The notes under the pieces were generated by a model, which saw nothing but the letters and a program-made list of their open reading frames with translations, searched no databases and was not told where the DNA came from. 64,000 nt of DNA from Halostagnicola sp. A-GB9-2 (GTDB lineage Archaea; Halobacteriota; Halobacteria; Halobacteriales; Natrialbaceae). Both the position numbers and the translations under genes were made by a program. Within the stretch, counting starts at the first letter, position 1. Each line of letters starts with the position of its first letter. Shown here in pieces: positions 33,923 through 59,595 of this stretch. Location of the stretch: NCBI RefSeq assembly GCF_030068615.1, contig NZ_JASJOC010000001.1, positions 682,001 to 746,000 on the forward strand, in the 5' to 3' direction.

Positions 33923-33995
33923 GGGCCGGTGGGGTAGCTTGGTATCCTTCGGCCTTCGGGTGGCCGTAACCGCAGTTCGAATCTGCGCCGGCCCA
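33923..33995 (+). tRNA. tRNA-Pro(CGG), integration site of the accessory element
   Basis: A 73-nt cloverleaf with acceptor GGGCCGG/CCGGCCC plus A. The anticodon stem CGGCC/GGCCG encloses TTCGGGT (anticodon CGG), and the T arm is CGCAG-TTCGAAT-CTGCG. No intron is present. The last 24 bases (33972-33995) recur perfectly at 59437-59460 and, with one inserted C, in part at 59596-59616, which identifies this tRNA as an integrase target. Confidence 0.95.
33972..33995. other. attL-type site (tRNA-Pro 3' end)
   Basis: The 24-bp block from GCAGTTCGAATC to GCCGGCCCA forms the left boundary of the accessory element. The tRNA is intact on this side and the recombinase gene lies at the other boundary. 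Confidence 0.85.
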
Positions 33996-34535: not shown

Positions 34536-36767
34536 GTGTCCCAACTCGAGCCAATTGACCGTGAGGTTGTTCGATTTTCGAGTGATAGCCAGTTACTGTC
34601 TGAACTCGGAGAACGGTTGATAGCCTCGCGTAAAGTGGCGCTTGCCGAACTCATTAAGAATGCGTATGATGCAGATGCAACAAAGTGCAATATTTGGCTA
34701 ACTGATAGTGGTGAAACCCTTGTTGTGAAGGATGATGGTCATGGAATGACTGAACAAGAATTCCGTGACCACTGGATGACGATCGCTACATCTAACAGAA
34801 GTGAAAACCCCACGAGTCGGAGGTACAATCGTGAGGTCACGGGCTCTAAAGGCGTTGGTCGATTCGCAGTTCGTAACTTAGGGTTGGAACTGAAGTTAGA
34901 ATCGGTCGCATACGACCCTGAAGCTGACGAACATCGTCGATTAGTAGCGAACTTCGATTGGCGTGAATTCGAAAGCGGTTCTGGGCTCAGCGAAATGGAG
35001 ATTGAGTACCGACTGTTTGATGATGTTGATGAATCAGATGAAGGAACCTGTCTTCAAATTTCTGCACTGCGAGACGACTGGTCTCAATCAGAACTTGAAC
35101 AGGTTTCTGATGGCGTCTTAGATATAGTGTCTGCCCCGTATGAGCCAGAACCATCAAATGTGGCTCCAGAATCTGAAGAAGATCCAGGTTTTTCAGTGTA
35201 TTTCTCACCTCCTGGTGAGGAAGATGTCACTGAGAGCCCAGCAAAAGAAATTTACGATCGATGGACTGCTCTCGCCGAAATTAACCTCGATGGGAGAACT
35301 GTCACCTATCAATATAACCATGATTCCGAGTCATTCGGCGGGCCATCTGAATATACCTATGAGCTGGAAAAGAATCATATTGGTGAGTTAGAAGGAGAAG
35401 TGCGGTTTTTCGATAAATCTTCAGGCCAATTCAGAGGGATGGAAACAATAGATGGCCGTCAGGTTCGAACATGGCTTAATGAGAATGGAGGTGTGCGAGT
35501 GATGGACAAAGGATTCCGCATGCCTCCGTATGGTGACAAAGGGAATGACTGGTTGAATCTCTCTGAGTCACACGCTCGGCGTGTACGTGATTGGCGCTCC
35601 CCTATCACCGAGGCACTGTTTCCGGGAGATGAATTGAGCATCGACATGCGTCGTGCACAACTGGGGCTACCGCGGAAAAGCCAGGTTTTGGGCGCTGTAG
35701 AGGTTTCAAGCTATCGACCTGGCGAAGAGTCTGAAGAGGATGAAACCGATCGATTAGTTCCGGCAATGGATCGTCAAGGATTCATTCAGAACGAAGCCTT
35801 CTATCAACTCCAAGATATTGTGCGTGGTGCGCTCGAAGGCATTGCGATTATTCACAAGCAGGCTGAACGAAGGGAAAAAATCGAAAAGGCAAATCGGAGC
35901 CGATCAAAGCTTGATAAGGTAGCTACGTCGACGGTAAATAAAATTGAGACTTCATCAGGCGTTGATTCTTCAGAGAAAGATGAGTTGGTTGGAGAGGTGA
36001 GGGAGCTGAAGAGGCAAGCTGAGGAGTCGGTGGAAGCTGAGCGAGAGGCACGAAAAGCTGTTGAGTCGATGAATTTGTTGGGTGCTGTGTCCGCCTTCAT
36101 GAGCCATGAGTCATCGAAGATCTTAGACAACGCTCAAAAGCTAGTTCGACACTGGAAGTCGATACCAGTGGAAGAGCGGGACGAGAAGACACAGGAGGTG
36201 CTTGAGAAGACAGAGTCTACAATTAATGATTATAAAAAACACTTGGGGTATGCTGAGAACTTTATGAAGGGCTTGTCTGAGGGTGATGAGACTCAGGAGA
36301 TCAATCCGAAAATGCAGGTCAAACATGTTGTGAACCGGTTCGAGTCCTACACTATACGGCGCTCTATTACAGTTGAAAACAAAATTGATTTTGAATTAGA
36401 TGGGCCTACAATGAACATCGCTGTGTATTCTGGGGTAGTGACAAACCTGTTCACGAATGCAATTAAGGCGGTTTCTGAGGAGGCTGCTCCGGAGGAGGGG
36501 AATAAGATCCGATTCGAGGCGGAGAATACCGGTGAATACCATAAATTGCGGGTCATCGACAATGGAAGTGGAATTGATGAAGAGGAGGAAGATGAAATCT
36601 TTGACCCACTGTACTCGACAACTAATGTAGAAGGCCCTGGAAGTATTGGCGCTGGCCTTGGATTGTATATTGTAAAGAACGTAGTGGAAACACAAGGTGG
36701 AGAAATTGAGTTGGTGGAACCACCAGAACCATATGAGACGGCGTTCGAAGTACGATATCCAATATGA
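34536..36767 (+). CDS. Double-GHKL ATPase: N-terminal HSP90/MutL-like ATPase plus C-terminal histidine-kinase core
   Basis: A 743-aa protein with two separate Bergerat ATP-binding folds. The first shows ELIKNAYDADA (residues 38-48), KDDGHGM (65-71) and TGSKGVGRFA (102-111), as in HSP90/MutL/MORC-type ATPases. The second, at the C-terminus, shows NLFTNAIKAV (from 637), DNGSG (675) and GAGLGLYIVKN (~706), typical of histidine kinases. A helical dimer region before it contains the sequence SHESSK with His524 as the likely phospho-acceptor. No membrane segment or PAS domain is present, so it is cytosolic. The GTG start at 34536 follows a TATA box. The next gene overlaps by 4 bp and has a receiver domain. 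An immune-sensor role is inferred. Confidence 0.8.
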   Translation: MSQLEPIDREVVRFSSDSQLLSELGERLIASRKVALAELIKNAYDADATKCNIWLTDSGETLVVKDDGHGMTEQEFRDHWMTIATSNRSENPTSRRYNREVTGSKGVGRFAVRNLGLELKLESVAYDPEADEHRRLVANFDWREFESGSGLSEMEIEYRLFDDVDESDEGTCLQISALRDDWSQSELEQVSDGVLDIVSAPYEPEPSNVAPESEEDPGFSVYFSPPGEEDVTESPAKEIYDRWTALAEINLDGRTVTYQYNHDSESFGGPSEYTYELEKNHIGELEGEVRFFDKSSGQFRGMETIDGRQVRTWLNENGGVRVMDKGFRMPPYGDKGNDWLNLSESHARRVRDWRSPITEALFPGDELSIDMRRAQLGLPRKSQVLGAVEVSSYRPGEESEEDETDRLVPAMDRQGFIQNEAFYQLQDIVRGALEGIAIIHKQAERREKIEKANRSRSKLDKVATSTVNKIETSSGVDSSEKDELVGEVRELKRQAEESVEAEREARKAVESMNLLGAVSAFMSHESSKILDNAQKLVRHWKSIPVEERDEKTQEVLEKTESTINDYKKHLGYAENFMKGLSEGDETQEINPKMQVKHVVNRFESYTIRRSITVENKIDFELDGPTMNIAVYSGVVTNLFTNAIKAVSEEAAPEEGNKIRFEAENTGEYHKLRVIDNGSGIDEEEEDEIFDPLYSTTNVEGPGSIGAGLGLYIVKNVVETQGGEIELVEPPEPYETAFEVRYPI

Positions 36768-37852
36768 CATTTGAGACGGAGAGCGTTATTTTATTTGAAG
36801 ACAGACCAAGCCGTGCCCGGGAATTCCAGGACGCTTGGGAGGAGGAGATGACTAACGAAGATCTGAATCTGGAAAAGTTTGAGCCAGATTCAGAGTTTGA
36901 GTCCTTTGACGTGATCGAACCATTGAGAGAAACATTAGCTGATCCAGAATTTCCACTCTTAGTAATCCTGGATGAAGATTTAACCGAGGATACAGACCAT
37001 GGTGTTCGGCAGCAAGATGTCCGTGAAGTATGTGACGAGGAGAACATCCCGTTGTGTATCTATCACCGAGAGCGTGATGAAGAGGATGAGACGAAACGAC
37101 GCATCGAAGAGTATGAAGAGGACGTTATCAAGCTTGACCCGAGTCGTGATTTCGAGCGGTTAGCGACAGATGCAGCTAATATTGCGCGAGCATTTCGAGA
37201 AATTCGGACGAAGTACCTCTCACTAAAAGGTGCTGAAGAGCAACATCCAATTGCTGAGATCTTGTGTGCGGATCAAGCAGTTAGGTCGCAGATGGATCAA
37301 TACAAGTGGGGGAATCCGAGAACAATAGTTGGACAGATTGACGGGATGTCCGAAGCTGAGAAAGACCGTCAATTCACCACGTTGCTCGGATATTGGATTT
37401 ATAATGAGCTCCTGGAGTTCCCCGGTGGCTTATTGAATGCGGTCGCCACAGCTGCTTATCTCAACGTGGATCATGAAGCATTTAAGAAAGACGAGCAGTA
37501 TCAGGAGCCATTTAGCGACGCATTGTATGAGGGCCCATTTTCAGAGATGGATCAATGGTGGTGGAAGCCACAGGTAGATCAAATTCGGGCAAACCACATG
37601 ACTGCTGAAGATAGTGGAATTCCAGATGGGCCGGAATTATTTGAGCACCTTGGCTGTGACCCAATTAACACCTCTAGATGTCACGATGAGGAAATGGGTG
37701 GTGATCATGAAGCAAGGTATTACGGAGTGATGATTCAGAAACCAGTATGTAAGGATCATTCAAAAGATGGTGGGGGATGGTTGCCAATGGGGGCTACTCG
37801 ATCGCGGATAAGTGTGGCGAAGCATGCGGAGTATAACCCGTGGATGCAGTAG
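36764..37852 (+). CDS. Receiver-domain protein with unknown C-terminal domain
   Basis: A 362-aa protein. Residues 1-125 match a response-regulator receiver: the acidic pair Glu12-Asp13 in ILFEDRPSR, a likely phospho-acceptor Asp70 in LLVILDEDL, and Lys123 in VIKLDP. The usual Thr/Ser position is replaced in PLCIYHRER. The C-terminal ~230 residues form no DNA-binding domain that I recognise. They contain QTVR-free helical sequence with EFPGGLLNAVATAAYLNVD, DQWWWKPQVDQIRANHM and a CHDEE/CKDH pair of Cys-His sites that could bind metal. It overlaps the kinase gene (ATGA), so the pair is translated together. The output is probably enzymatic or protein-binding rather than transcriptional. Confidence 0.7.
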   Translation: MTFETESVILFEDRPSRAREFQDAWEEEMTNEDLNLEKFEPDSEFESFDVIEPLRETLADPEFPLLVILDEDLTEDTDHGVRQQDVREVCDEENIPLCIYHRERDEEDETKRRIEEYEEDVIKLDPSRDFERLATDAANIARAFREIRTKYLSLKGAEEQHPIAEILCADQAVRSQMDQYKWGNPRTIVGQIDGMSEAEKDRQFTTLLGYWIYNELLEFPGGLLNAVATAAYLNVDHEAFKKDEQYQEPFSDALYEGPFSEMDQWWWKPQVDQIRANHMTAEDSGIPDGPELFEHLGCDPINTSRCHDEEMGGDHEARYYGVMIQKPVCKDHSKDGGGWLPMGATRSRISVAKHAEYNPWMQ

Positions 37853-37858
37853 GTTACA

Positions 37859-38680
37859 ATGACTGACGGAGAATTTGAATTCAAGCAGTTAGGTGGAGAA
37901 CACCAAGGAAAGGTATTCTCTAAATTCAATAGCTTTTGTAACCAACTGAAGAACGTTTTGAACGTCTCTGTGAGTAATGATTCTGATTTCTTAACAGATA
38001 TTAACAGGAGTGAGGAAGGGTTAGAAGTAGAGAGTCCACCAGGGGCGATGTTCCAATTTACAGGTATTCCATATCCTTCTGATGATGGCGTAGATGGTCA
38101 AAAATTGCATATTGGTGCCGTATTTGAACAAACTATCATTGGGCGAGAAACTGATGAAGGGATCGTTTACGAGACTTCCAAATCCACAATGAGGGTTGTC
38201 TATTTGAAGGTGTTAGGGGGGCGGAACCCGAGTACAGGAATATTCCCTGCCGAAATAAAGAACGGATATCATTTCGATTTTGAATTTCCACCCGACGATG
38301 GCCATCCGATATTCCATGTGCAGTACGACCCAGAATCAATCGATTTAGAGGTTCTGGAGCAACAATATGCCATTCAGAATGAGGAGGTAGTTGATCTCGA
38401 GGTTCTAGATGCGCCTAGGGTACCGAGTGCGCCAGTGGATGTCGCTGGCCTCACATATATGTTAACGAAAGAGCTTCCAGAAGAGGTCGAATGGCCTGGT
38501 AAATTGACTGGTGAATTGGAGAAACTACCAAAGTATCCGAATGAATGTTATGAACCTGATCCTCAAAACAATCAGTGCATGTTACCAGAATGGTGGTATG
38601 TCCATGCAAGTGAGGATAGTGATCTTTCTGGAGAAACGGTAACCTCACGGACTATGGATAGCTTCTCAAACAGCACTTAA
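37859..38680 (+). CDS. Unknown third gene of the kinase/receiver cassette
   Basis: A 273-aa acidic, beta-rich protein starting MTDGEFEFKQLGGEHQGKVF; I recognise no domain. Notable stretches are GIFPAEIKNGYHFDFEFPPD, a possible ligand-binding beta sheet, and a C-terminal WYVHASEDSD. No membrane helix or signal is seen. It starts 6 bp after the receiver gene stop and shares that gene's AT-rich codon usage, so it belongs to the same operon. A regulator, toxin or adaptor role is possible but nothing in the sequence decides. Confidence 0.6.
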   Translation: MTDGEFEFKQLGGEHQGKVFSKFNSFCNQLKNVLNVSVSNDSDFLTDINRSEEGLEVESPPGAMFQFTGIPYPSDDGVDGQKLHIGAVFEQTIIGRETDEGIVYETSKSTMRVVYLKVLGGRNPSTGIFPAEIKNGYHFDFEFPPDDGHPIFHVQYDPESIDLEVLEQQYAIQNEEVVDLEVLDAPRVPSAPVDVAGLTYMLTKELPEEVEWPGKLTGELEKLPKYPNECYEPDPQNNQCMLPEWWYVHASEDSDLSGETVTSRTMDSFSNST

Positions 38681-38971
38681 TGGAAGTGCTGGTTGAGGTA
38701 TCGACAGTTGCACGTGGCGGAGGAACCGGAGTTCTGGGGTGAACCGGAGGGGAGTGTGATTCCCCGGCATTCTGTAGACTATATCGTTCCTGAGAACCAC
38801 ATCGAGTTGGATAAGCTGCTCACCTACTTGAATTCCGAGAAAGCGAAGGAATGGATCGAAGCGCATGCGTAGAAGGCCTATACTGATCACATTCGGATTC
38901 AATCGGAAGTGATCGAAGACTTGCCGGTGCCGGAGGAGCTCGCAGAAACTATTCAGACGTCCCTAGTGTGA
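38681..38971 (+). pseudogene. C-terminal fragment of a restriction-type DNA methyltransferase, with a nonsense codon
   Basis: In the frame directly after the previous stop (TAA 38678-38680) there are 96 codons with no ATG at the start, reading RHSVDYIVPENHIELDKLL and TYLNSEKAKEWIEAHA. A TAG follows at 38870-38872, then KAYTDHIRIQSEVIEDLPVP. This is the shape of the C-terminal end of Eco57I/TaqI/PglX-type methylases (short strand, then YLNS..., then ...LPVP). One C-to-T change in a CAG would create the TAG. The catalytic domain is absent. It is a remnant of a lost modification gene, between the kinase cassette and the second defence operon. Confidence 0.65.
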
Positions 38972-39198
38972 TGACTGGAGAATTTGATGTTGGTGATTGG
39001 GTTCAGATCGATATTTCTGATGAGACTGATCCGGATTTTGAACGCCTGCATAGGCAGCGAGGTACTGTTCTAGACACGTTGGTGGACAATACGGGTGCTT
39101 CGACTGGAAATCCGCGTAATAGTACTCTGTATCGCATCGCGCTAGCCGAGGGGGACAAGACGGTCAATGTGCAGTGGCAGGACTTGAGACCGGTGTGA
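38971..39198 (+). CDS. Small SH3/KOW-like protein, paralogue of 46297-46521
   Basis: A 75-aa protein reading MTGEFDVGDWVQIDISDETD, then PDFERLHRQRGTVLD, ending LYRIALAEGDKTVNVQWQDL plus RPV. It has the short-strand pattern of an SH3-like barrel, with GDxVxIDI at the start and W-x-DLRP at the end. Its ATG overlaps the TGA of the methylase remnant (TGATG). A close paralogue follows the DndD-like operon at 46297, so the gene pair seems to travel with restriction-type modules. Confidence 0.65.
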   Translation: MTGEFDVGDWVQIDISDETDPDFERLHRQRGTVLDTLVDNTGASTGNPRNSTLYRIALAEGDKTVNVQWQDLRPV

Positions 39199-39494
39199 TG
39201 ATTGTTTGTAGTCAGAATGTGGTTTACTCACAACGAGAGGTGTGATTGTACGCTACTGGTCTATCTGTTACGGCTCATTCGTGTCTTTCTTGGAAGAACT
39301 ATTTCCGGTGGATTTCGTAAACCCATTCATCACCAGGGCCAGATGTGTGAGTGTGCTGGCCCACTTTGTCACACTCTGTCATAGTGCGCTCCAATCATCA
39401 ACGTCTTAGTCACGTCGACAATTACTAATCGGTACCCGTCGCTGGTGAATAACTATAAAAGGCCCGTGTACTTCAAATTCACATATATAACCAA
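39199..39494. promoter_or_regulatory. Promoter region of the methylase/helicase/ATPase operon
   Basis: Nearly 300 bp with no supported gene. A clear TATA-like CTATAAAAG at 39453-39461 lies 34-42 bases before the ATG at 39495, the only good archaeal promoter for the following six-gene string. Confidence 0.5.
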
Positions 39495-41636
39495 ATGTCT
39501 GAGGAACCGCCACTAAAAGATGCTATTTCGCAGGGAGGTAACGCAATCTATGAACAATTCGACGCAGTTGACAGTGAGATTCTGGCCCGTCTTGACGACT
39601 GGACATCATATCACGGCCTCGATCGCACGAAAAATCCCCTCCTGACCGTCGCACACCAAGCCGCATTCAACGTTCTCTTAAAAAGCGCCCTCTACTCACA
39701 CCATCGGCTCGATGGATACGAGCTAACCAGTCTCAATGCAGACACGGACATTCGTGAGTGCTTTGCTGAGGCGAAATCCACCATCGGCAGTAACGCGTTC
39801 GAGGAGTGCATCCTCGACGAAGTGGCGTTCACCGCTGATTCAAACACGCTGCAAAAAATAATTGAACCAAGACACCTTCTCGTCAACGCAGACGATCCTG
39901 CCGAGACAATAGGGTGGTTGTTCGAGTCCATCATACTACAGGACTCCCGGCGGAAACTCGGCCAGTTCCGTACGCCAGACCACGTTGCCGAAGTGCTAGC
40001 CGACTGGGCAATCACCAGCGCCGACGACACAGTATTAGACCCTGGCATGGGTGCAGGAGCACTGACAGCAAAAGCTTACAAACGGAAACAAGATCACCGG
40101 GGTAAAAGCAGCGTTCGAGAAATGCACGGTGTGGATGTCAACCCACTTGCAGTGGTGATGTCCACTACCGCGATTAAGCTCATCAATGGGGATGGAACCC
40201 CGAATTTCTACCATCGCGACTTTCTCGAAATTGATCTACCGGAATCAAAAGAGCATATCGACCCATCGACTACATCTATCTCCGAGAAAGTAGACGCGAT
40301 TGTCTCTAACCCGCCCTACTCCCGACATCACGAACTGAGCCAGGAGGACAAGGCATGGATCAAAAAGAAAGTACAAGAGGAAGCAGGGGGCCTCTCGCTA
40401 TCTGGACGGTCACCTATGTTTCTCTACTTCTACATTCACGCGACGCAATTCCTGAAGCAGGGAGGACGGATGGCATTCCTCACGCCGTCAGAATTCCTCG
40501 AAACAAACTACGGCACCCCCCTCAAAGAATATCTTCTGAACAATTTCAACATAAACGCTGTCATCCTCCACGACCACGACTCACTTACATTCGAGGATGT
40601 CAAGACCACCTCGTGTATTGTCCTGCTCGAACGTGACAACAATCCTAGTTCTGAGACTCATACTCGCTTCGTTGAGCTCAACGAGTGGCCGGACGCAGAT
40701 GACCTTCTGGATGTGATTAGCACAGGTACCACGGACTGTGACTTTGGCAGCGTCTGGGTTACCGAACAGGGTCAACTTGAGCCAGAGGAGAAATGGACGA
40801 AGTACTTTGACCCAGATCCAGTCACACGCTTCCCCGATCTCAAACCACTCCGTGATGTCGGCAGACTGAAACGCGGGATCGCTACCGGCGATAACGACTA
40901 CTTCTGCCTGACCGATGAACAGGTCGAAGAATGGGACATCGAGGATCAATATCTCTCACCGCTAATTCGCAATTCCACCAGTGTGGAACACTACGATTGC
41001 ATAGACGATGATTTCGAAGAGTGGGGTGAGGTGAACAAAGAAAGATGGCTGCTGTACCACGTTGATGGTGAAACGAGTTCGCTGGGAAGCAAAGGCGTGC
41101 GTGAGTATCTGAAACACGGTCTCGAACAGGGCGCAAACGAAAGCTATCTTGCCCAATCGAGAGCAGTCTGGTACCGAGTAGATCGGCGTAAACCCGCAGA
41201 TGTTTGGGCAACATACATGACCCAGAATGGGTTCCGATTCATCCACAACAAAATCGACGCGCGGAACCTGAATAACCTCCATAGTGTCTATTTTGACGAT
41301 TACTCCGACCGGCAAGTGCGTGCCATTTGTGCGTATCTAAACAGCAATGTCGTTGACCAAATCGTGGCGCAAAGTGGCCGTACGTACGCTCAGGGCTTGC
41401 AGAAAATCGAACCGAATGAACTGAAGGAAGTTCCAGTCATTGACCCGGACAAGCTAACCAGCGGACAGGTGTCTCGATTAGCTGAGTTGTTCGATCGGCT
41501 GTGTATAGCCGCTCGAGCCGACGACGAAGACGAAGACGAGGTGAGAACCGTAATAGACGGGTATCTGAGTAAGATATTGAACAGTCACCAAGAAGAAGCC
41601 TCGCGTCTACAGCCGTCTGTGGAAAGGATTCAATAA
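39495..41636 (+). CDS. N6-adenine DNA methyltransferase (Eco57I/TaqI class)
   Basis: A 713-aa class gamma-type adenine methylase. A helical N-terminal domain precedes the SAM site LDPGMGAGALTAKAY (from residue 182), an acidic HGVDVNPLAV follows, and the catalytic NPPY lies at residues 272-275 (VSNPPYSRHHELS). The C-terminal 300 residues resemble a TaqI/Eco57I specificity domain with KRGIATGDNDYFCLTDEQ, then YLNSNVVDQIVAQSGRTY. No nuclease motif is fused, so modification only is expected. The helicase gene starts 24 bp downstream. It probably marks host DNA for the following helicase/ATPase genes. Confidence 0.88.
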   Translation: MSEEPPLKDAISQGGNAIYEQFDAVDSEILARLDDWTSYHGLDRTKNPLLTVAHQAAFNVLLKSALYSHHRLDGYELTSLNADTDIRECFAEAKSTIGSNAFEECILDEVAFTADSNTLQKIIEPRHLLVNADDPAETIGWLFESIILQDSRRKLGQFRTPDHVAEVLADWAITSADDTVLDPGMGAGALTAKAYKRKQDHRGKSSVREMHGVDVNPLAVVMSTTAIKLINGDGTPNFYHRDFLEIDLPESKEHIDPSTTSISEKVDAIVSNPPYSRHHELSQEDKAWIKKKVQEEAGGLSLSGRSPMFLYFYIHATQFLKQGGRMAFLTPSEFLETNYGTPLKEYLLNNFNINAVILHDHDSLTFEDVKTTSCIVLLERDNNPSSETHTRFVELNEWPDADDLLDVISTGTTDCDFGSVWVTEQGQLEPEEKWTKYFDPDPVTRFPDLKPLRDVGRLKRGIATGDNDYFCLTDEQVEEWDIEDQYLSPLIRNSTSVEHYDCIDDDFEEWGEVNKERWLLYHVDGETSSLGSKGVREYLKHGLEQGANESYLAQSRAVWYRVDRRKPADVWATYMTQNGFRFIHNKIDARNLNNLHSVYFDDYSDRQVRAICAYLNSNVVDQIVAQSGRTYAQGLQKIEPNELKEVPVIDPDKLTSGQVSRLAELFDRLCIAARADDEDEDEVRTVIDGYLSKILNSHQEEASRLQPSVERIQ

Positions 41637-41660
41637 GCAACGTATCGACTGTCCACACAA

Positions 41661-43742
41661 ATGTCTCTTCGTGACTATGAATGGGATGGCTACTATCCCG
41701 GCAGTGCCGACCACCTCCGGGAGTTCTTCATCCCTGCCCTCCGACGAAGCACAACCTACGATCGCATAACAGGCGACTTCTCCTCATCGGTAATATCGAT
41801 TTTCTCAGAAGGGCTGAAGCAGTTCATCGACAACGGAGGGAAGATTCGACTAATTACGGGTATAGAACTATTCCCGTCCGATATCGAAGCGATTGAACGC
41901 GGCAAGACGGACGATGTGTTGGTTGACAAGATTGACTGGGAGGAAGTCGAAGACGGCAGCTCTGAAGAGGTATTGGAAGCGTTAGCGTGGTTGATTGCCA
42001 ACGATATCCTGGATATCAAGGTTGGGGCGATTGTCGATGAGAAGCAACGCCCTCGAAGCAGCGACTATGGCCAGTGGCACCAAAAAGTCGCGATTTTCTC
42101 TGACGTCAATGCGAGCATCTCAGTTGTTGGCTCACCAAACGAATCGTTCAAAGCTCTCCAGCGAAACCGCGAGTCTCTCGACTTGAACAGAAGCTGGGTC
42201 ACACATCCAACTGAGGACTGGGACGAAGCTACCAAGGTCGAAAGCCACCAGAACGAGTTCGAGTCCCTCTGGGACGATCGCGCCGACGGTGCTCGAGTAT
42301 TCAACTTCCCTGAGGCTGTCGAGTCTGACATTCTGGAGTATAAACCCAGGTACGAACCGGACTGGGACGAAGTTACGAACGTAGCACAGGAACAGGAGGA
42401 TGGCCCATCACCACGTCCGTACCAACAAGATGCAATCGACCTGTTCCTCGAAAACGACTACCGAATCCTATTGGAACATGCAACCGGCACCGGGAAGACC
42501 TGGACATCCCTGTTTTCTGCTTCCGAGGTCGCCACTGATGACTCTGTCATCGTGATACTCGCACCGACAACGGATTTAGTCAAACAATGGGCTTCATCCG
42601 ACAACGTAGGGCAGTTCTTCCCGAACTCGGTTGTGATTGAGTGTACCGGAGATGAGGACTGGTCGAAGGATCTCTACGACATGCTGCTTACCGACCGGGA
42701 TGCACCGTTGGTTGTTGTCTCGACAATGTTCCCGGGCACAATGTCAAAAATATTTGAGATGGTCAACACTCGAACTCGCTCTTCAGACCAGATTCTCATC
42801 GCCGACGAAGTACACAATGTTGGGTCTGAGCGCCGGAGAGAAGCACTTGACCAATTCCAACCGACCGGTGGCCGAATTGGACTGAGTGCGACACCAGAAC
42901 GTGGTGATGACGGAGACGAATTCATCGAACGATATTTCGGCGATGTCGTCGATACTATCACGCTCGAGGACGCCATTGAACACTACGGCGTACTCAGCGA
43001 GTACGAATATCATGTCCACACTGTCACGCTAAACTCGGTCGAACGTGAGGAGTACAACGAACTTTCGAAGGATATCGCCCAGAAGTACCAGCGCTATCGA
43101 AGTTCTGAGAACGATCCCATTACTGAGGTTGCCGATCGAAACCCACCGCTGCGCGGTGCGATCATGGAGCGAGCGCGCGTATTGAAAGAGTGCCAGGCGA
43201 AAGACGTGGTGACAGCTGATGTAATCGGAGGGTTAGGGGAGAAGACATTGGTGTTCTGTAATACGAGAGACCATGCTCGCCGGGTGAAATCAGTTATCGA
43301 CGAATCCTCGGCACGTAACATCGGGTTGTTCTTTGGGTCGCTCTCTTCAGATGAGCGAGACGGCTTCATGTCCGACTTTGAAGATGGGTTCCTTGACACT
43401 CTAGTCTCCATCGACGTACTAAACGAGGGTATCGACGTCCCGGAATGTGACTCAGCGGTATTGGTAGCAAACTCCATGTCGGAGCGCGAGGCTGTTCAGC
43501 GCCGGGGGCGAGTGTTACGCAAAGCAGAGGAGGAAACTCGCGCCCAAATACACGACTTTATTACATTACCTGTGGCCCAAGAGGAAATCGCATTCCAATA
43601 CGCCGATTTATCCACTGCTGAAGTCAACCTGATTAAGAAGGAGCTACTGCGTGTTGAGCGAATGAACGAGGCCGCGTGGAATCGGGAACAAAATGACCTA
43701 GATATTATAAGACTCCGGAATCAGGTTGCAGTATACGAATGA
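41661..43742 (+). CDS. PLD-nuclease/SF2 helicase fusion
   Basis: A 693-aa protein. The N-terminal ~200 residues are phospholipase-D-like: YDRITGDFSSSVISIFSEG and a catalytic HQKVAIF (His140, Lys142) followed by SVVGSPNES (from 155), as in PLD nucleases. The rest is an SF2 helicase: ATGTGKTW (Walker A, 274-281), ADEVH (DEVH 382-385), GLSATPER (motif III), and QRRGRVLRKA (motif VI). It would translocate on and cut DNA. DISARM's DrmC and several restriction-like systems use PLD nucleases, but in this form nuclease and helicase are one protein. The stop overlaps the next ATG. Confidence 0.85.
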   Translation: MSLRDYEWDGYYPGSADHLREFFIPALRRSTTYDRITGDFSSSVISIFSEGLKQFIDNGGKIRLITGIELFPSDIEAIERGKTDDVLVDKIDWEEVEDGSSEEVLEALAWLIANDILDIKVGAIVDEKQRPRSSDYGQWHQKVAIFSDVNASISVVGSPNESFKALQRNRESLDLNRSWVTHPTEDWDEATKVESHQNEFESLWDDRADGARVFNFPEAVESDILEYKPRYEPDWDEVTNVAQEQEDGPSPRPYQQDAIDLFLENDYRILLEHATGTGKTWTSLFSASEVATDDSVIVILAPTTDLVKQWASSDNVGQFFPNSVVIECTGDEDWSKDLYDMLLTDRDAPLVVVSTMFPGTMSKIFEMVNTRTRSSDQILIADEVHNVGSERRREALDQFQPTGGRIGLSATPERGDDGDEFIERYFGDVVDTITLEDAIEHYGVLSEYEYHVHTVTLNSVEREEYNELSKDIAQKYQRYRSSENDPITEVADRNPPLRGAIMERARVLKECQAKDVVTADVIGGLGEKTLVFCNTRDHARRVKSVIDESSARNIGLFFGSLSSDERDGFMSDFEDGFLDTLVSIDVLNEGIDVPECDSAVLVANSMSEREAVQRRGRVLRKAEEETRAQIHDFITLPVAQEEIAFQYADLSTAEVNLIKKELLRVERMNEAAWNREQNDLDIIRLRNQVAVYE

Positions 43743-43918
43743 CTCTCGACAGAGACTTGCGAGAAATAGTTCAGGATGAAATAGACGATCCTCACGAACG
43801 CGAGTTGGTTACGAAGATCCTCGAGTGGGAGAACCCACGTGTACACCATGGCACCCGTCAGGACAAAAAGCGTCATATGGACAACTTCATTAACGAATAT
43901 CTGAACGACCGAGACTAA
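43739..43918 (+). CDS. 59-aa coupled protein of the helicase/ATPase operon
   Basis: ATG 43739 overlaps the helicase stop (ATGA), and its own stop is 5 bp before the ATPase start, so it is a genuine coupled gene. It reads MTLDRDLREIVQDEIDDPHE, then RELVTKILEWENPRVHHG and a basic/acidic end HMDNFINEYLNDRD. It is entirely helical and charged, with no domain that I recognise. A small bridging subunit or inhibitor is plausible. Confidence 0.7.
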   Translation: MTLDRDLREIVQDEIDDPHERELVTKILEWENPRVHHGTRQDKKRHMDNFINEYLNDRD

Positions 43919-43923
43919 CATAC

Positions 43924-45885
43924 ATGAAATTTGAGCGAGTTAAACTGCGGAACTTCCGCCCATACCGAGACGTCAAAGTCGATTTCACCATCTCTGACGG
44001 TCAAATCCATATCATTGAAGGCCCGCAGGGGGCGGGGAAAACAAGCTTCCACAAAGCAATCCAATGGGGACTATATGGTGATTCCGAGTACGACAATTTC
44101 CGCCAAAATTGGAACGCAACCGCCCGAGAGGAAGACGAGAGGGAGATGTTCGTCGAAATCAAGTTTACCGAAGACAACATTGACCACCTCCTACGACGTG
44201 AGATATCCTCGTTCAACCCTGACCTCGAACGTGCCTACGAAGACCTCAAGCTAGTCATAGACGGCGAAAACAGATACGAGGGAGAACGCGCACAAGACGA
44301 AATCAACGAGTTGCTTCCCGAGCAGCTGAAGGAGTTCTTCTTCCTTGACGGCGAGCGTATTCGAAAACTTATCGATGACGAAACTGGTCGAAAGGTCAAG
44401 GAAGACATTGAGACCATCCTCAAACACCAGTCCATTATCCACGCCAAGGAAGACCTCGACTACGTCATCGACAACAAGTACGACCCAGAACTGGAACGAG
44501 CACGCGAGGAGAAGAGCGAGCGGGAGGAACTCAACCAGGAATACAAGCAAATTCGCGACGAGATCGCAGAGTTGGAAAAAGAACGGGATGAGCTGCGTGA
44601 CGAACGTGGAAACAAGAAACGAACACTCGAGGACACGCGCGAGGAATTAGAGAAGTACGACGACGAACTCGCCGAGCAACTCCAGTCTCGGGAAGACAAC
44701 ATTGCGGAACTGAAGGCCTCGAAAACCAGCGAGCTTGATGACCTCCGTGATGCGTGGACTCAACTCCCGTATGCTATCTTGGAAGACACGATCGATGACA
44801 TCGTCGACGACTTGCAGGAGCGTGCCGATGACCTGACCGAACTCCGGTCGTCGGTGCATAAGCAAGAAATAGTAGAAGAGCTTCAGCAAGAAGCTCTAGA
44901 CGGTCGGTGCCCCATTTGTGGCGAGGAACACGTAGAGGTCGTCCCCGAGGTACACGCAAACGGCGGAGAAGACGTTGAATCGGAAGCTTCGCTTACTGAC
45001 CAAATTCATTCACTACGTCAACGGATCAACACCCTAAACAGCGCATCTCCTCCGGATCGCATCCCGGGGGAAGTGATGGGCGAAATTCAGCGCCTCCGGA
45101 ACGAGATCCGAAAGGAGGAGGGTAAACGCCAAGAACTGATGGAGGAGTTTGGCGGGCGCCCTACCGATGCCGAAGGCCAAAAGCAGCGCTACAAGGAGAA
45201 TATCAACCGGTTAGAGTCACGTCTCGACGAGATTCAGGACGAACTCGATAAGAAGGCAGAGAAAATCAAAGATTTACAGAGCGAGCGTGACCGCATTCAA
45301 AGGGAGAAACAAAAGAAATCGGGCCAGAAGACCATCGACGACACTATCGAAAAAATCGAAGCCGCGGAACAAGCCATCGACCATTTAGATGGCATTCGTG
45401 AGGCTCACATCGAACAAAAGCGGGAGGCTATCAAGCGGAAGATGGACGAGGTGTTCAAGCAGGTTAGCCAGTCCGAGTTTATTAAGGGTCGCTACAAGGG
45501 CATTGATTTCGCCGGTGATGCCGAGGACGATGACTCATTCGTTCTGGAGCTGGTGAAAAATAATGGTTCGAAGAAGGCGATGAACGACCATCCGCCGTCG
45601 GCAGGTGAAACGCAGCTGACGGCGCTGTCGTTCATCTTCGGTCTTAACGAGTACGCCAAGTACTCCACGACGATTGTATTCGACACCGTGGCTGGCCGGC
45701 TAGACCTCGACAACAGTCGTGCGCAGGGGCAGTTCTTCACGACGCTTGAAGAGCCGATTGTGCTGTTGGTAACCGACGCTGAACTCCAGCAGCTTGAGCA
45801 GTCAATTAAGGGTTATACCGGTGTGCATTACGTAATTAAACCGGACAAGAACATGGATTCGACAATGGAGTTGGTCGATCAATGA
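43924..45885 (+). CDS. DndD/SMC-like ATPase with zinc hook
   Basis: A 653-aa ABC-class ATPase of the SMC/Rad50/DndD group. The N-terminus has LRNFRPYRDVKVDF and Walker A GPQGAGKTSF (residues 33-42). FFFLDGERIRKLIDDETG is a hallmark of DndD. Long coiled coils with many EELxxE/KxxRDE heptads flank a zinc hook CPICGEEH at residues 329-336. The C-terminal lobe has PPSAGETQLTALSFIFG (signature/D-loop) and IVFDTVAGRLD (Walker B). The family binds and tethers DNA ends or marks. No DndB, DndC or DndE-sulfur gene is present, so the protein is DndD-like without the phosphorothioate pathway. Confidence 0.85.
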   Translation: MKFERVKLRNFRPYRDVKVDFTISDGQIHIIEGPQGAGKTSFHKAIQWGLYGDSEYDNFRQNWNATAREEDEREMFVEIKFTEDNIDHLLRREISSFNPDLERAYEDLKLVIDGENRYEGERAQDEINELLPEQLKEFFFLDGERIRKLIDDETGRKVKEDIETILKHQSIIHAKEDLDYVIDNKYDPELERAREEKSEREELNQEYKQIRDEIAELEKERDELRDERGNKKRTLEDTREELEKYDDELAEQLQSREDNIAELKASKTSELDDLRDAWTQLPYAILEDTIDDIVDDLQERADDLTELRSSVHKQEIVEELQQEALDGRCPICGEEHVEVVPEVHANGGEDVESEASLTDQIHSLRQRINTLNSASPPDRIPGEVMGEIQRLRNEIRKEEGKRQELMEEFGGRPTDAEGQKQRYKENINRLESRLDEIQDELDKKAEKIKDLQSERDRIQREKQKKSGQKTIDDTIEKIEAAEQAIDHLDGIREAHIEQKREAIKRKMDEVFKQVSQSEFIKGRYKGIDFAGDAEDDDSFVLELVKNNGSKKAMNDHPPSAGETQLTALSFIFGLNEYAKYSTTIVFDTVAGRLDLDNSRAQGQFFTTLEEPIVLLVTDAELQQLEQSIKGYTGVHYVIKPDKNMDSTMELVDQ

Positions 45886-46262
45886 GCTTCGATGCCATCG
45901 AAGGCGGCGCCACCATCCACGCTGACAGCGAAAAGCTCACCAAAATCAAGAAGCACGTCAATGAGGAATTCCGAAACGAAGACGAAAACGACCTTGCTGT
46001 CAGTCGTGTTGTCGATTTAGCTGTTGCTGTGGGTCTTGAGGAGAACAACAGAAGTGAACACAGCTTGGATGGTGCCGACCGAACAAGTATCGGTTCTCTC
46101 GATCCCCAGGGTGTATTGAAAACGCTCATCGAAATTAGGCACCCCGAGAAGTCCGGTGAGGAACTCGTGACGCTCCTGCGGGAGTATTATGCTGGTGGTG
46201 TCGATATCATCGCCAACGACATCGATAACAACGATTACTTCGATTACGAGAGATACCTCTAA
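45882..46262 (+). CDS. 126-aa partner of the DndD-like ATPase
   Basis: The start overlaps the ATPase stop by 4 bp. The protein begins MSFDAIEGGATIHADSEKL and has TKIKKHVNEEFRNEDENDLA followed by a hydrophobic helix VSRVVDLAVAVGLEE, then a C-terminal helix EELVTLLREYYAGG and acidic tail. Size and position match the small last genes of Dnd-like operons, and the central helix could be a ribbon-helix-helix-like or DndE-like DNA-contact element. The resemblance is weak. Unrecognised otherwise. Confidence 0.6.
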   Translation: MSFDAIEGGATIHADSEKLTKIKKHVNEEFRNEDENDLAVSRVVDLAVAVGLEENNRSEHSLDGADRTSIGSLDPQGVLKTLIEIRHPEKSGEELVTLLREYYAGGVDIIANDIDNNDYFDYERYL

Positions 46263-46296
46263 TTCTCTCGGTGGTTCTTTCAGTTTATCTAGATAT

Positions 46297-46521
46297 ATGA
46301 ATTGGCTTGATGTTGGTGACGAAGTGCGGGTTGACATCCCGGACAAAGATGACCCTGATTTTGAGCGTCTCCATGGGCGTCATGGGACAGTGGTTGAGGT
46401 ATTAGAAGATGATGCTGGTTTTGTTACTGGTGATCCGCGTGATAGTCTACTGTATCGCATCGAGTTAACCAAGGGAGATGAGGCGGTCGATGTGCGATGG
46501 CGAGATCTGAGACCGTTGTGA
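46297..46521 (+). CDS. Small SH3/KOW-like protein, paralogue of 38971-39198
   Basis: A 74-aa protein reading MNWLDVGDEVRVDIPDKDDP, then DFERLHGRHGTVVEV, ending LLYRIELTKGDEAVDVRWRD plus LRPL. It aligns residue by residue with the 75-aa protein at 38971, sharing VGD-V-DI, DPDFERLH-R-GTV, DPR-S-LYRI-L and W-DLRP. It follows the 126-aa gene by 34 bp. Both copies sit last behind a DNA-modification gene or its remnant, which suggests a linked accessory function. Confidence 0.65.
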   Translation: MNWLDVGDEVRVDIPDKDDPDFERLHGRHGTVVEVLEDDAGFVTGDPRDSLLYRIELTKGDEAVDVRWRDLRPL

Positions 46522-47586: not shown

Positions 47587-47799
47587 CTACTGCTCGAGTT
47601 CGAGCGTGTGGGTATGTCCGCACTCGAGGAGAATTGATCCTTCACCGCGAAGAAGGGTGTCGGTGACGTTGTTGGGGTAGGGACAGGGTTAGAGTTTGTC
47701 GCAGTAGGCGCAGTATGCCAGTGCAGCCGCGTTCGACCGGCTAGCGCTTGGATGGGTGCGTTGATGAAAGAAGGCGATGAGAGAGGAGATGAGAGGCAT
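47587..47799 (-). pseudogene. Small zinc-ribbon gene interrupted by a TAA, coupled to the short recombinase
   Basis: The recombinase stop and an ATG overlap as TAATG at 47797-47801. Reading on gives 36 codons (MPLISSLIAFFHQRTHPSAS, ending LAYCAYCDKL) and then TAA at 47689-47691. In the same frame it continues PCPYPNNVTDTLLRGEGSIL and LECGHTHTLELEQ to TAG at 47587. The cysteines CAYC before and CxY/CGH after the stop look like one zinc ribbon cut in two. Either the gene is broken by a nonsense codon, or only the 36-aa piece is made. Confidence 0.5.
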
Positions 47800-48413
47800 T
47801 ATGAGAGTCCTGCTTCTTCGAAGGCTTCGGTGGTGGTTTCTTGGTCTGCGCCACCGAGATACGGCTTAATCGATTCGTAGTCTTCCCAGCCACCAGCGGA
47901 CATTACGACTTCGGGATTCATCCCTTTTCGCACCAAGCATGTGTGCGCGTAGTATGCTCGAAGATCGTGGGGACTGAGGCGCACCCATTCTCGACGTCCA
48001 GTTTTATCAGCGACGACTTCTCCAATATCTTCGTAGATCTGCTGAATGCGTCGCTTCCCGACACCAACAATCGGTTCGGTCTGTCCGATGCTGTTCGTGC
48101 GGATGAACCTGGTGAGAAGGCGTTCGACGTCTGAGGGGAGGTATGCTTCTCGGTATTTTCCGTTCTCGAGTTCTCCAGTGGTGTCTTTTCCTTCTGGAAC
48201 GGCCAAGAAGTGGGCGTCGAGGGAAGGATCGTCGGCGGCGAGGATGTGGCGAGGTTGTGCGTTCGCGATCTCTCCGACGCGGAGGCCGACTTCTCCTGCA
48301 ACTCGAAGCATGATTTCAGTTCGGAAGCTGTCGGCGGCGTCGACGAGGTGTTCTCGATACTCGTGTTCGTTCGGGATGAGTCGAAGCTGGTTCTTGAGAG
48401 TCTTGATTTGCAT
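47799..48413 (-). CDS. Short tyrosine recombinase (catalytic domain)
   Basis: A 204-aa protein consisting almost entirely of the tyrosine-recombinase catalytic domain. The first Arg is in GEVGLRVGEIAN, the His-x-x-Arg pair in SPHDLRAYYAHTC, and the nucleophile is probably the Tyr in YESIKPYLGG. There is no separate core-binding domain, as in some archaeal plasmid/virus integrases. It starts at MQIKTLKNQLRLIPNEHEY. As it is far from both att sites, it may resolve dimers or invert DNA rather than integrate the element. Confidence 0.8.
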   Translation of the reverse strand: MQIKTLKNQLRLIPNEHEYREHLVDAADSFRTEIMLRVAGEVGLRVGEIANAQPRHILAADDPSLDAHFLAVPEGKDTTGELENGKYREAYLPSDVERLLTRFIRTNSIGQTEPIVGVGKRRIQQIYEDIGEVVADKTGRREWVRLSPHDLRAYYAHTCLVRKGMNPEVVMSAGGWEDYESIKPYLGGADQETTTEAFEEAGLS

Positions 48414-48810
48414 GTGAGTGAGTAGCGTGATTGGGGCGTGTTTGCGCCTTGTTTCACCTTTTCTTAAGAAAGAACGAAAAAGGTTGGGGTGTGGGTTAGG
48501 ATATTGGGTTGATCTCCGGGGGTATTCGCGTATGTGTTTCGTAGTAATAGGACAAGTGCGAAACGGTGGGTTAGAGCGGGTATGTCGAGGGTCGAAAGGT
48601 GGGGTTCGAGAGGTGATGTTGGGGTGCATCAGTTGGGTATCGTTATATTGTGAAACCTCGAGTGTGGGGTTCGCCGGTCGAAGACGTCCCAATAACCATG
48701 ACCGGACTATCCGGACTGTCTCGCGTGTTGTGCTTAAAGGAAGCCACGAATAGGAATTCTCGGGAAGACAGAGAGATATGCCGCCATTCACAACGAGGGG
48801 TGTGTCAATA
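48414..48810. other. Gap upstream of the short recombinase with a 12-bp palindrome
   Basis: Nearly 400 bp without a supported gene. TTTCTTAAGAAA at 48460-48471 is a perfect palindrome ~46 bases before the recombinase start and may be its TATA/operator region. Nothing else is evident. Confidence 0.4.
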
Positions 48811-49017
48811 TCAGTTGTGGCGATCGGTGAATCGTTCTTTGGCGTGTTTTCCGCACAGGTATTCGTCGGTTTCGGGATCTTGCCACACTGCGTCGTCTCC
48901 ACAGATTGTGCACGTTCCGTCAACTGCGGTGATGGGGCCGGTATCTCCCATCTCCAGCGATTCTCTCACGATTTTCTCGGCTTCCGTTTCGACTTCTTCG
49001 TCGGTCATTTCGGTCAT
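48811..49017 (-). CDS. Small zinc-finger protein
   Basis: A 68-aa protein with a helical, acidic start (MTEMTDEEVETEAEKIVRES) and a zinc site CTICGDDAVWQD followed by EYLCGKHAKERFTD. The ligands would be the Cys of CTIC plus the Cys and His of LCGKH. It is a typical small zinc-finger protein of haloarchaeal mobile elements. Two copies of the 51-bp promoter module lie directly upstream (49071-49121 and 49176-49226) in its orientation. Confidence 0.6.
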   Translation of the reverse strand: MTEMTDEEVETEAEKIVRESLEMGDTGPITAVDGTCTICGDDAVWQDPETDEYLCGKHAKERFTDRHN

Positions 49018-55517: not shown

Positions 55518-56417
55518 TTACTCGCTGGGGGAGTGGTGGGCAGTGAATGCGGTGATGGCTTCGTTTAAGTTCACAAACTCGACTGGGTCATTATCGGGAG
55601 TTGTTTCACTTGTGGAGTCCTGGATTGTGTTAATTCGTACGAGGTCGTATAGGTCGTTGATGTCTATACTCGATTTATGAGTGGAGCTGTTAGGTCTTTC
55701 TTCGATAAGGTATTCGATGTATTCAAGTGTGTAGTAATTTGTGTCCAGTTTAAGTAGTGTGTCTTCAAACGTTTCGGTGTGTGTTCCAGGTTCGTCTCGA
55801 GGAAGGTTGCTTACGAGTGTCTGGAAGGTTTTACTGGTCGGTTCTCGATCAGGCGTGTACACTCTAAGTTCATTTTCTGGCGTCCCTCGAATCCACTTGA
55901 GGTCTTCTTCGATATCAGCTTCCGGGAGTGAATCGTCGACAGGTAGCACTCTAATGTCTTGAACCGTTAGTGGATCGCCGTTCATCGTGACCGAGTTATT
56001 GACCGTTTGAATCCTTCCTTCCAAGTCTTCGTCTTCGATGCGCCTGAGTTCGTATAACTCAATTCCTGCCCCAAGCGCTTGCTCGATTGCGCCTGACTGA
56101 AACCCGCTCTTCGATACAACCACACCAATGTTTGCAGTTGAGTTCGCTACATTATTCATGGTTTCCGCGATCACGGATTGATCAACACGATAGCTCCAGA
56201 ATTTACACTCAATAACGATGAATACACTGTGATGAGTTGCGTTCGTCCATACTGCCACATCTACTTCTTTAGAACCCCCGTGATTCAACGGCAGATCGTA
56301 TCTTGTCTCCACTCGATCGACGCCCTCACCATCTTCTAATCCAGCCACAATTCTTTCGTAAATTTCACTGTCGACGTCGTCCCATTCGACAGTCTCGTCG
56401 TTGGCGTTTGGAGTCAT
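55518..56417 (-). CDS. Mrr-like restriction endonuclease domain protein
   Basis: A 299-aa protein. Its N-terminal ~130 residues carry a clear PD-(D/E)XK core: HGGSKEVDVAVW, VFIVIECKFWSYRVDQSVIA and NIGVVVSKSGFQSGAIEQAL, the Mrr/REase pattern of D, E-x-K and a following helix. The C-terminal half is acidic and of unknown fold. ATG 56417 (MTPNANDETVEWDDVD) fits best; 56432 is also in frame. It probably cuts foreign or modified DNA. No methyltransferase is adjacent. Confidence 0.7.
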   Translation of the reverse strand: MTPNANDETVEWDDVDSEIYERIVAGLEDGEGVDRVETRYDLPLNHGGSKEVDVAVWTNATHHSVFIVIECKFWSYRVDQSVIAETMNNVANSTANIGVVVSKSGFQSGAIEQALGAGIELYELRRIEDEDLEGRIQTVNNSVTMNGDPLTVQDIRVLPVDDSLPEADIEEDLKWIRGTPENELRVYTPDREPTSKTFQTLVSNLPRDEPGTHTETFEDTLLKLDTNYYTLEYIEYLIEERPNSSTHKSSIDINDLYDLVRINTIQDSTSETTPDNDPVEFVNLNEAITAFTAHHSPSE

Positions 56418-56875
56418 ACTAAGCACTTGCAACCCCGGCTGATAATACTTGATACTCTACAAATCAATTATTACAATTGGTTGGTCTTTGTCCACCGAGC
56501 AAATTCCGTTTTGCAGCTATGGTAAATGCCAGAATCGACATAGTCACGAGGTTGGCGTGTGATTGGCATATGCTCTGTATTCACCTATGGTGGCTATCAG
56601 AGAGGGAGATGATCGTTCCAGTAATGTCTTGCCCTATACTGAACGATACGTGCTTCACCTGTACTGAACGTCAACTACGTATGCTTATTGACCGCTGGGG
56701 TTCCTACCAACCAGCGTATCTGTTCGAAGAGTCGTGATGAATACAGAGCGCATATCAGTTATCAGTCCCGTTCTCAAATTGAGTAAATTTAATTAGCTCA
56801 ATATTCTAGGGAACGGTTATCAGATTGACTGTGAGCGGCGTAAATCGTATTAGAAAGAACACCATATCGATTCAC
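56418..56875. other. Gap without a supported gene
   Basis: About 460 bp, AT-rich. A frame at 56477 (with TCTERQLRML near its end) has no family features and a weak start context. Confidence 0.35.
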
Positions 56876-57773: not shown

Positions 57774-58202
57774 ATGCGGGTCGCATTTGAGAACTGGGAC
57801 GGACATCAACAGGCGCGGGTGAAGACTCCAACCGAACACCTAGAATTCAGCATTAGCCCGAAGGACTTTATCAGACATATCGATGGGGAGACGTGGCCGA
57901 CTCGAAGCGACGCAAAAACGACGGTGTTTGAGATAGATCGCTATCCGACTATTATGTACGATCGCGCAGAGGAACTCGAGGGCTCTGAAGAGCTTGACGC
58001 GGCTGTTGATGAGGTGTGGGAAGAGATGAAGGAGTTCTGGTGGGACGAGGTTGAATTCGTTGATGAGATCAAGGTCATGGGCGAGCACACCGTGGAAGTG
58101 TGCTACGAAGAGACGAAGAGTAGGGTTAGATGTTGTCGAGGTAGCGCCGTCGAAGCTCCATTTTCTCGCGTTCCGAGCGAGAGTCGTAGTGTTCGTCGAT
58201 GA
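57774..58202 (+). CDS. Unknown acidic protein overlapping the integrase 3' end
   Basis: A 142-aa protein reading MRVAFENWDGHQQARVKTPT, then LEFSISPKDFIRHIDGETWP, a helix EELEGSEELDAAVDEVWEEM and EFVDEIKVMGEHTVEVCYEE. The last ~25 codons lie inside the antisense end of the integrase (58126-58202), so the conserved part probably ends near residue 117 and the tail is read through integrase sequence. No recognised family. Confidence 0.5.
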   Translation: MRVAFENWDGHQQARVKTPTEHLEFSISPKDFIRHIDGETWPTRSDAKTTVFEIDRYPTIMYDRAEELEGSEELDAAVDEVWEEMKEFWWDEVEFVDEIKVMGEHTVEVCYEETKSRVRCCRGSAVEAPFSRVPSESRSVRR

Positions 58203-59145
58203 CGTCCTTTGAGACGTCGAGTCGGTCGCTGACGACTTCAGCAGGAGTGTCCATCGACAAGAAGTGGGTGATGGCGCCTCTGCGGAACGCGTGTGGGCCG
58301 ACGCTGTCTGGGCACTTGCTGGCGGTCATGCGTCCTTGGACAGCTTCGCAGTGGTCTGGGTCGCGGTCGTGCGGGCAGTCTTTACCGTACATGCACGGTC
58401 TTGATAGTCTGTAGACGTAGGTTTGGAACGTATTTTTTGTGATCCGTCCATGCTTAGTGGTGAACAGTGGTTTTCGGTCGTGGTCGTCGGTTACATCGTG
58501 CCGGTGTTCACCAATATAGTCTCGGAGGATGTTGACGGTGCGCGTTGAGATTGCGACTGATCGTTCTCCTTTCTCCTTGTTTTTCAACGGCGTATCCTGT
58601 TCGGGCCGATGGTGTAACTCAAGGAATTCTTCACGGAGATGGAGGTGATCAAGGTCGATACTCCGAGCAGCTCCAGCGCGCATTCCGGTCTCCCAGATCA
58701 GGCGCGCGATAGCATGATGAATTCCTGCGTAACTGAATTTGTCATGGTGGGCGAGAATGTCGTTCGCTTTCTCCTCCCGTACGACGTCTTTCTCACGAAC
58801 AGGTTTGCGATCGACAGCAGGTGAGTCGATGCTTTCAGAGAGGCCGTCACGCACGCCGTCGATATTCTCACAGAATCTGATGAACACGCGCAGTGTATCC
58901 ATCTGTGACTTTAGTGTGGTCTGGTTGACTTGCTCTGAGCGCCAGAGCCTGAAGCGGTGGATGTCGCGTCCACCGACGTCGTTCAAGTTCCCGATTTCTT
59001 CGTTCTTGCACCATTTGATGAAGTGTTTGAGTCGGTAGCCATGCGATTGTAGGGTGGCTTCGGCGACTTCGCTCCTGCGCTGCTGTTTGTACATCTCGAC
59101 GGCTTCGTCTGGTTCGAGTGGTTCGAGTTCGTCTGGGTTCGTCAT
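58126..59145 (-). CDS. Tyrosine recombinase/integrase of the element
   Basis: A 339-aa phage-type integrase. The N-terminal core-binding domain contains SHGYRLKHFIKWCKNEEIGN and LKSQMDTLRVFIRFCENIDG. The catalytic domain has Arg in WETGMRAGAARSIDL, Lys near KNKEKGERSVAIS, HAFRRGAITHF (His-x-x-Arg) and DEHYDSRSERE with the nucleophilic Tyr. A zinc-like CMYGKDCPHDRDPDHC insertion occurs before the HxxR box, as in many haloarchaeal integrases. ATG 59145 starts the conserved part. It lies 290 bp from the right att site, so it is the probable integrase for tRNA-Pro. Confidence 0.92.
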   Translation of the reverse strand: MTNPDELEPLEPDEAVEMYKQQRRSEVAEATLQSHGYRLKHFIKWCKNEEIGNLNDVGGRDIHRFRLWRSEQVNQTTLKSQMDTLRVFIRFCENIDGVRDGLSESIDSPAVDRKPVREKDVVREEKANDILAHHDKFSYAGIHHAIARLIWETGMRAGAARSIDLDHLHLREEFLELHHRPEQDTPLKNKEKGERSVAISTRTVNILRDYIGEHRHDVTDDHDRKPLFTTKHGRITKNTFQTYVYRLSRPCMYGKDCPHDRDPDHCEAVQGRMTASKCPDSVGPHAFRRGAITHFLSMDTPAEVVSDRLDVSKDVIDEHYDSRSEREKMELRRRYLDNI

Positions 59146-59436
59146 GGATTGCCTTATTGGGGTTGCTCCAGAGGAATTGCAGTAGGTTCCCGTTGAGGCG
59201 ATGGCGGCGTGGAGCCGGTCGGTTGGTCGGCTAACGTGATATTGACTGGGTGTAGGGTTGGCTTGATTGCGGGCCAGCCAGCGACGGCTCGATTCCTTCG
59301 TGGAGTCGGAAGCGGAACGAGCGTAGCGAGTGAGAACCGATAGGCCGTAAGCGCAATGACGCGAGGCCGTCAGGCTGAGTGTCATCAAAGAAGGCTGGCA
59401 CACGCGCAGCGCGAGCGAGCATGTGTCAGACTTCAA

Positions 59437-59460
59437 GCAGTTCGAATCTGCGCCGGCCCA
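59437..59460. other. attR-type site (copy of tRNA-Pro 3' end)
   Basis: Perfect 24-bp match to 33972-33995, from GCAGTTCGAATC to GCCGGCCCA. It marks the right boundary of the element. Confidence 0.9.
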
Positions 59461-59461
59461 C

Positions 59462-59515
59462 TTCTCCCGCAACGCAAACCTGTGAGCGATAGCGAACGAT
59501 CTGCGTTGCGGAGAA
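59462..59515. repeat. Inverted repeat just outside attR
   Basis: TTCTCCCGCAACGCA at 59462-59476 is complementary, apart from one missing base, to TGCGTTGCGGAGAA at 59502-59515. The hairpin separates attR from the second tRNA-derived scar. Confidence 0.6.
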
Positions 59516-59595
59516 TGGTTTCCAAGCAGATTCGAGCAGGGAAGTCGCACGCCCGGAAAGCGACCGAAGGGAGCGACCCGGAACGTCTTCCCGTG

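Follow-up and report, generated by a model that had tools for sequence, protein, structure and literature searches.

A 25.5-kb, low-G+C integrative island at a tRNA-Pro gene of Halostagnicola sp. A-GB9-2 (positions 33972 to 59460 of the 64,000-nucleotide stretch analyzed, hereafter the window) probably carries a mobile, methylation-marked PbeABCD defense system linked with a two-component module of the GHKL type. The island is bounded by an exact 24-bp direct repeat, of which the left copy, attL (33972 to 33995, + strand), is the final 24 bp of tRNA-Pro(CGG) and the right copy, attR, lies at 59437 to 59460 (+ strand); the number of such repeats expected in shuffles is 0. The tyrosine recombinase of the island (Pfam Phage_integrase; 58126 to 59628, - strand) is encoded by an annotated ORF that overlaps attR. 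The island also harbors a second tyrosine recombinase gene (47799 to 48923, - strand) and a gene for an Mrr_cat/HSDR_N-like nuclease (55518 to 56432, - strand), possibly a further defense gene.

The core of the gene block is identified by its sequence as the already known antiviral module PbeABCD, which was described together with DndCDEA (Xiong et al. 2019, PMC6459918) and later reinterpreted as a CxC ABC-ATPase/DndE system (Rakesh, Aravind, and Krishnan 2024, PMC10853773). The identification follows from the PADLOC matches of PbeA and PbeC, the position of PbeB, and the profile match of PbeD, all encoded on the + strand. PbeA (41661 to 43742; PADLOC PbeA, 1538 bits across the entire model) combines a PLD (HKD) domain with the motif H140xK..D..GSPNES (H140/K142) and an SF2 helicase with Walker A GTGKT (K279), DEVH at 382, and QRRGR at 613; the helicase lysine, given as K280 in an earlier sequence-only reading of this DNA, is K279. 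PbeC (43924 to 45885; PADLOC PbeC, 1386 bits) is a DndD/Rad50-like ABC ATPase with Walker A K39 and a CPIC zinc hook at 329. The 59-amino-acid protein encoded between them (43739 to 43918) owes its tentative identification as PbeB to position; its position and sequence are kept within its clade (6 loci), and a homolog scanned against models gave no match. Directly after PbeC, a 126-amino-acid protein (45882 to 46262) is assigned as PbeD, the DndE-like DNA-binding partner of PbeC, by comparison of its family profile with a PbeD profile built from further Pbe loci of haloarchaea (hhalign, probability 95.6, E = 1.2e-8). The protein itself has no direct model match, one homolog matches PADLOC PbeD at 0.007, and the AF2 model is poor (pLDDT 44).

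Upstream of PbeA lies the gene for an Eco57I-type N6-adenine DNA methylase (39495 to 41636, + strand; Pfam and PDB matches) with the Pfam domains N6_Mtase, Eco57I, and M_Eco57I_C, a C-terminal target-recognition region, and no nuclease. It has the features of Eco57I-class Type II adenine enzymes, namely, a SAM motif, NPPY (at 272), and a target-recognition domain, and its best solved relatives in the PDB are adenine methylases, e.g., BseCI and CamA; adenine specificity is predicted from family and motif. No DndC was found in the host genome (rated 99.97% complete), which places the locus outside the PT type defined by the DndC/D/E/A genes, and a predicted Eco57I/BseCI-type adenine methylase stands in the place of the phosphorothioation genes.

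All six ORFs of the methylase-Pbe operon, together with the packing and the two 4-bp overlaps reported in the sequence-only reading, were recovered unchanged. The spacings are 24 bp between methylase and PbeA, a 4-bp overlap between PbeA and PbeB, 5 bp between PbeB and PbeC, a 4-bp overlap between PbeC and PbeD, and 34 bp between PbeD and the SH3b gene. A putative archaeal TATA-like box, ACTATAAAAGG (39453 to 39462, + strand), lies ∼40 bp 5′ of the methylase ATG, and a sigma-70/terminator scan 3′ of the operon, a type of scan ill suited to archaea, gave no match. Compared with the copy of the set in Haloferax elongans, which is 80 to 85% identical, each of nine genes showed a dN/dS of 0.02 to 0.15 and is therefore under purifying selection. 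The gene block is thus real and intact.

The sixth gene of the operon encodes an SH3-like small protein (46297 to 46521, + strand) and has a paralog (58% identity; 38971 to 39198, + strand), possibly also accessory, so that one copy ends the upstream triad described below and the other ends the Pbe operon. Similar SH3-like genes are scattered in the relatives. A core role for the SH3-like protein was rejected because it is also found in relatives without PbeC of this type, and the sixth gene is probably accessory.

The same parts had been taken in the sequence-only reading for a set without a published counterpart. The gene parts and the restriction-modification-like logic were read correctly, but a PLD-helicase, a small protein, a zinc-hook ABC ATPase, and a small DNA-binding protein are together PbeABCD, and because both this system and its pairing with methylases are already in the literature (Xiong 2019; Rakesh 2024), the core is not new. 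For the core, this is the kind of published counterpart that the sequence-only reading itself had named as its refutation. Of the three small proteins noted there, one is the PbeD/DndE-like protein and another the probably accessory SH3-like protein. The reported lack of DrmA/DrmB, PglZ, and BrxC held, with no PADLOC or NCBIfam match in the ten proteins scanned. Cleavage by the PLD-helicase is not a safe assumption, because the characterized PbeABCD blocks replication without detectable cleavage of viral DNA (Xiong 2019). When the PT mark was lost, Xiong et al. saw neither cleavage nor a growth defect, which speaks against the mechanism proposed below. Finally, the six genes exist as a unit, but the boundary drawn around them omitted a triad of genes immediately upstream (34536 to 38680).

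The triad, encoded on the + strand, begins with a GHKL kinase (34536 to 36767) in which Pfam domains delineate an N-terminal HATPase_c_3 (MORC/Hsp90-like), a DHp-like H-box (H524), and a C-terminal HATPase_c; the H-box histidine and the N, G1, and G2 boxes are kept in 16/16 aligned homologs. The kinase gene shares a 4-bp overlap with that of REC362 (36764 to 37852), a receiver-domain protein recognized by its family profile, which matches solved response regulators (E = 1.7e-4). Residues D13 and D70 are invariant across 15 homologs, and the AF2 model (pTM 0.82) has a receiver-like layout at the N terminus. The C-terminal domain belongs to no known family; Foldseek returned no confident match for the whole receiver model and none for this domain, and a search of viral contigs with the single receiver protein gave no match. 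The third gene (37859 to 38680), located 3′ of the receiver gene in 15/15 aligned loci, encodes P273, a protein with invariant H, D, and R residues for which Pfam, PADLOC, and a profile search of the PDB yielded no credible match. An H-box kinase beside a receiver with acidic residues corresponds to the general features of two-component systems, with phosphotransfer itself predicted.

Membership of the triad in the same set as the methylase and PbeABCD is well supported by the relatives. The scan of genome contigs with PbeA had the Haloferax elongans locus as its sole match, and the remaining relatives were taken from a search of genomes. The triad, methylase, and PbeABCD occur together in four genera, represented by the window, H. 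elongans, and the loci L061 and L062; in the latter two, the eight genes from the methylase through PbeA, PbeB, PbeC, PbeD, GHKL, and REC to P273 are contiguous and co-oriented on one strand with short gaps. Co-occurrence of the triad with Pbe has a P value of 5e-7 (2e-5 without a near-copy). The triad is also found with an Eco57I-type methylase and without Pbe at 11 archaeal loci (L063 to L066 and L075 to L081) and on a Paraburkholderia plasmid, and Pbe also occurs without the triad. At five of the Pbe-free archaeal loci (L065, L066, and L075 to L077), a YgjP-like metallopeptidase gene lies between the methylase and the GHKL kinase.

The partners of PbeA were scored within neighborhoods of ∼8 kb at 21 loci from haloarchaea and plasmids that encode PbeA at full length, a sample that left out short PbeA-like proteins without PLD (L053 to L057), the truncated L071, and the contig-end L050. 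A methylase was present at 10/10 Dnd-free PbeAC loci and a GHKL ATPase at 8/10, compared with 0/11 for methylases of the searched types and 0/11 for GHKL ATPases at Dnd-linked loci. The corresponding Fisher P values (2.8e-6 for methylase and 2e-4 for GHKL; 3.4e-5 when L059, with neither Dnd nor methylase, is counted against) are descriptive only, because the search profiles were partly built from positive loci, C5 methylases lay outside their coverage, and the loci are not independent. The PbeA and PbeC trees group L061, L062, L069, and L070 with the window and H. elongans in a single clade (SH-aLRT 100) separate from the main Dnd-linked clade, and the partner swap between Dnd and methylase/GHKL follows phylogeny in these trees. 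Near Dnd-free PbeABCD, a fusion of a GHKL ATPase with an N6/N4 DNA methylase was observed at L069 (4441 to 7374), L070 (4698 to 7607), and L085 (15946 to 18873), in each case with a second methylase nearby.

In H. elongans, the triad sits between the methylase and PbeA, and directly 5′ of PbeA lies a degraded 158-bp duplicate of the 3′ end of the methylase (L001, 8815 to 8975), 88% identical to the intact methylase. Because this remnant precedes PbeA, adjacency of methylase and PbeA predates the present place of the triad, which was probably inserted between them through duplication and loss. Each gene has nevertheless been kept in exactly one intact copy.

Several described systems resemble parts of the set. 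DndCDEA-PbeABCD shares with it PbeA, the PbeB position, PbeC, and PbeD in the same order, as well as a haloarchaeal, horizontally mobile character, but the window has an adenine methylase in place of DndCDEA, a linked triad, and a PbeC with a CPIC hook from another clade. Xiong et al. (2019) found a methylase within 10 kb of 155/320 Dnd-free PbeAC and proposed methylase pairing, as did Rakesh et al. (2024) with C5 and N4-cytosine methylases. The CxC ABC-ATPase/DndE systems likewise comprise an ATPase-DndE pair, an HKD-SF2 helicase, a small protein, and a methylase replacing PT, but their methylases are cytosine enzymes, whereas that of the window is of the Eco57I N6A type; because cytosine methylases are those mentioned in the available text of Rakesh et al., an adenine methylase of this type appears to be a new Pbe partner. 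GHKL, histidine kinase, and receiver are not mentioned in the text of that paper. Bacteria are known to have kinase-receiver pairs of the HEF_HK/Response_reg_2 type close to methylases (Bellieny-Rabelo 2021, PMC8011034), as well as the paraMORC GHKL ATPases (Iyer 2008, PMC2292703), and these too bring together, as neighbors, a HATPase_c_3 + DHp + HATPase_c kinase, a receiver protein, and a DNA methylase. They are, however, bacterial and mostly linked to C5 methylases, and neither P273 nor a PbeABCD link is among their features as far as the available parts of those papers describe them. Neither Pfam model covers the archaeal versions: the window proteins do not match PF19191 or PF19192, and a bacterial homolog of the kinase matches HEF_HK weakly (0.008, below the cutoff). 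MADS, BREX, and DISARM also combine a methylase with an ATPase or helicase, and DISARM has a PLD protein; matches of the window methylase to MAD2, PglX, and Type I enzymes are confined to its MTase domain.

The sequence itself establishes what the proteins are, that their active sites are intact, that the genes are linked and under selection, and that the set is mobile. From these parts, we infer the following mechanism. The Eco57I-type methylase would mark its sites in the host chromosome with m6A, and PbeC-PbeD, an SMC/Rad50-like ATPase with its DndE-like DNA-binding partner, would scan DNA and recruit PbeB and PbeA to unmarked molecules, where the helicase and PLD domain of PbeA would halt replication or cut DNA; the precedent in this family is a block of replication that depends on PT. 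At the same time, the GHKL kinase may sense DNA or stress in an ATP-driven manner, with phosphate passing from H524 to D70 of the receiver, which would then turn on P273 as a second effector or regulator. A single DNA mark would serve both arms. In its fullest form, which we advance only tentatively, this would be a composite system in which one adenine methylase self-marks for both PbeABCD and the GHKL/receiver/P273 phosphorelay, the latter a signaling-based restriction arm without a recognizable nuclease that would also operate by itself with a methylase in archaea and bacteria.

Because triad and methylase occur without Pbe, and Pbe without the triad, the two may instead be independent neighbors on a defense island, methylase-PbeABCD on the one hand and, on the other, a GHKL-receiver restriction-modification-like set whose own methylase has been lost or which shares the present one by chance. 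The triad has its own Eco57I methylase at the 11 archaeal loci and on the bacterial plasmid, and in the window 814 bp lie between triad and methylase, with one small gene and also a new TATA-like box among them. Such independence is nevertheless doubtful, given that each of the four combined loci has one methylase only and that the eight genes are contiguous and co-oriented in two genera, and the GHKL-methylase fusion at other Dnd-free Pbe loci implies that the combination of GHKL, methylase, and Pbe recurs in another form.

A role for the triad as a mere switch, a two-component system acting on methylase/Pbe expression or activity with no antiviral effector of its own, would agree with the intact kinase and receiver residues and with the proposal that such pairs control restriction-modification systems (Bellieny-Rabelo 2021). 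It is nonetheless rather unlikely, as triad and methylase also stand without a recognized restriction enzyme alongside, and therefore only the methylase is left there for the triad to regulate. Xiong et al. (2019) raised the possibility that Dnd-free PbeABCD is inactive, and by extension PbeABCD could be a solitary relic beside an orphan epigenetic methylase with no role in defense; the intact genes with their low dN/dS, the coupled reading frames, and the methylase at every Dnd-free locus scored make this very improbable.

A methylation-marked PbeABCD joined to the two-component module thus remains the preferred reading. Pairing of Pbe with methylation was already proposed in 2019 and 2024, and the link to the triad is the part that goes beyond the six genes of the sequence-only reading. 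These findings provide comparative support for the ability of PbeABCD to run on methylation, a question left by Xiong et al. and Rakesh et al., and name a compact, testable operon. They further delineate a conserved archaeal four-gene set of methylase, GHKL kinase, receiver, and P273, for which the cited papers, to the extent of their available text, contain no description, and in which two-component signaling occupies the position expected of a restriction nuclease. MORC-like GHKL ATPases are thereby linked to Pbe.
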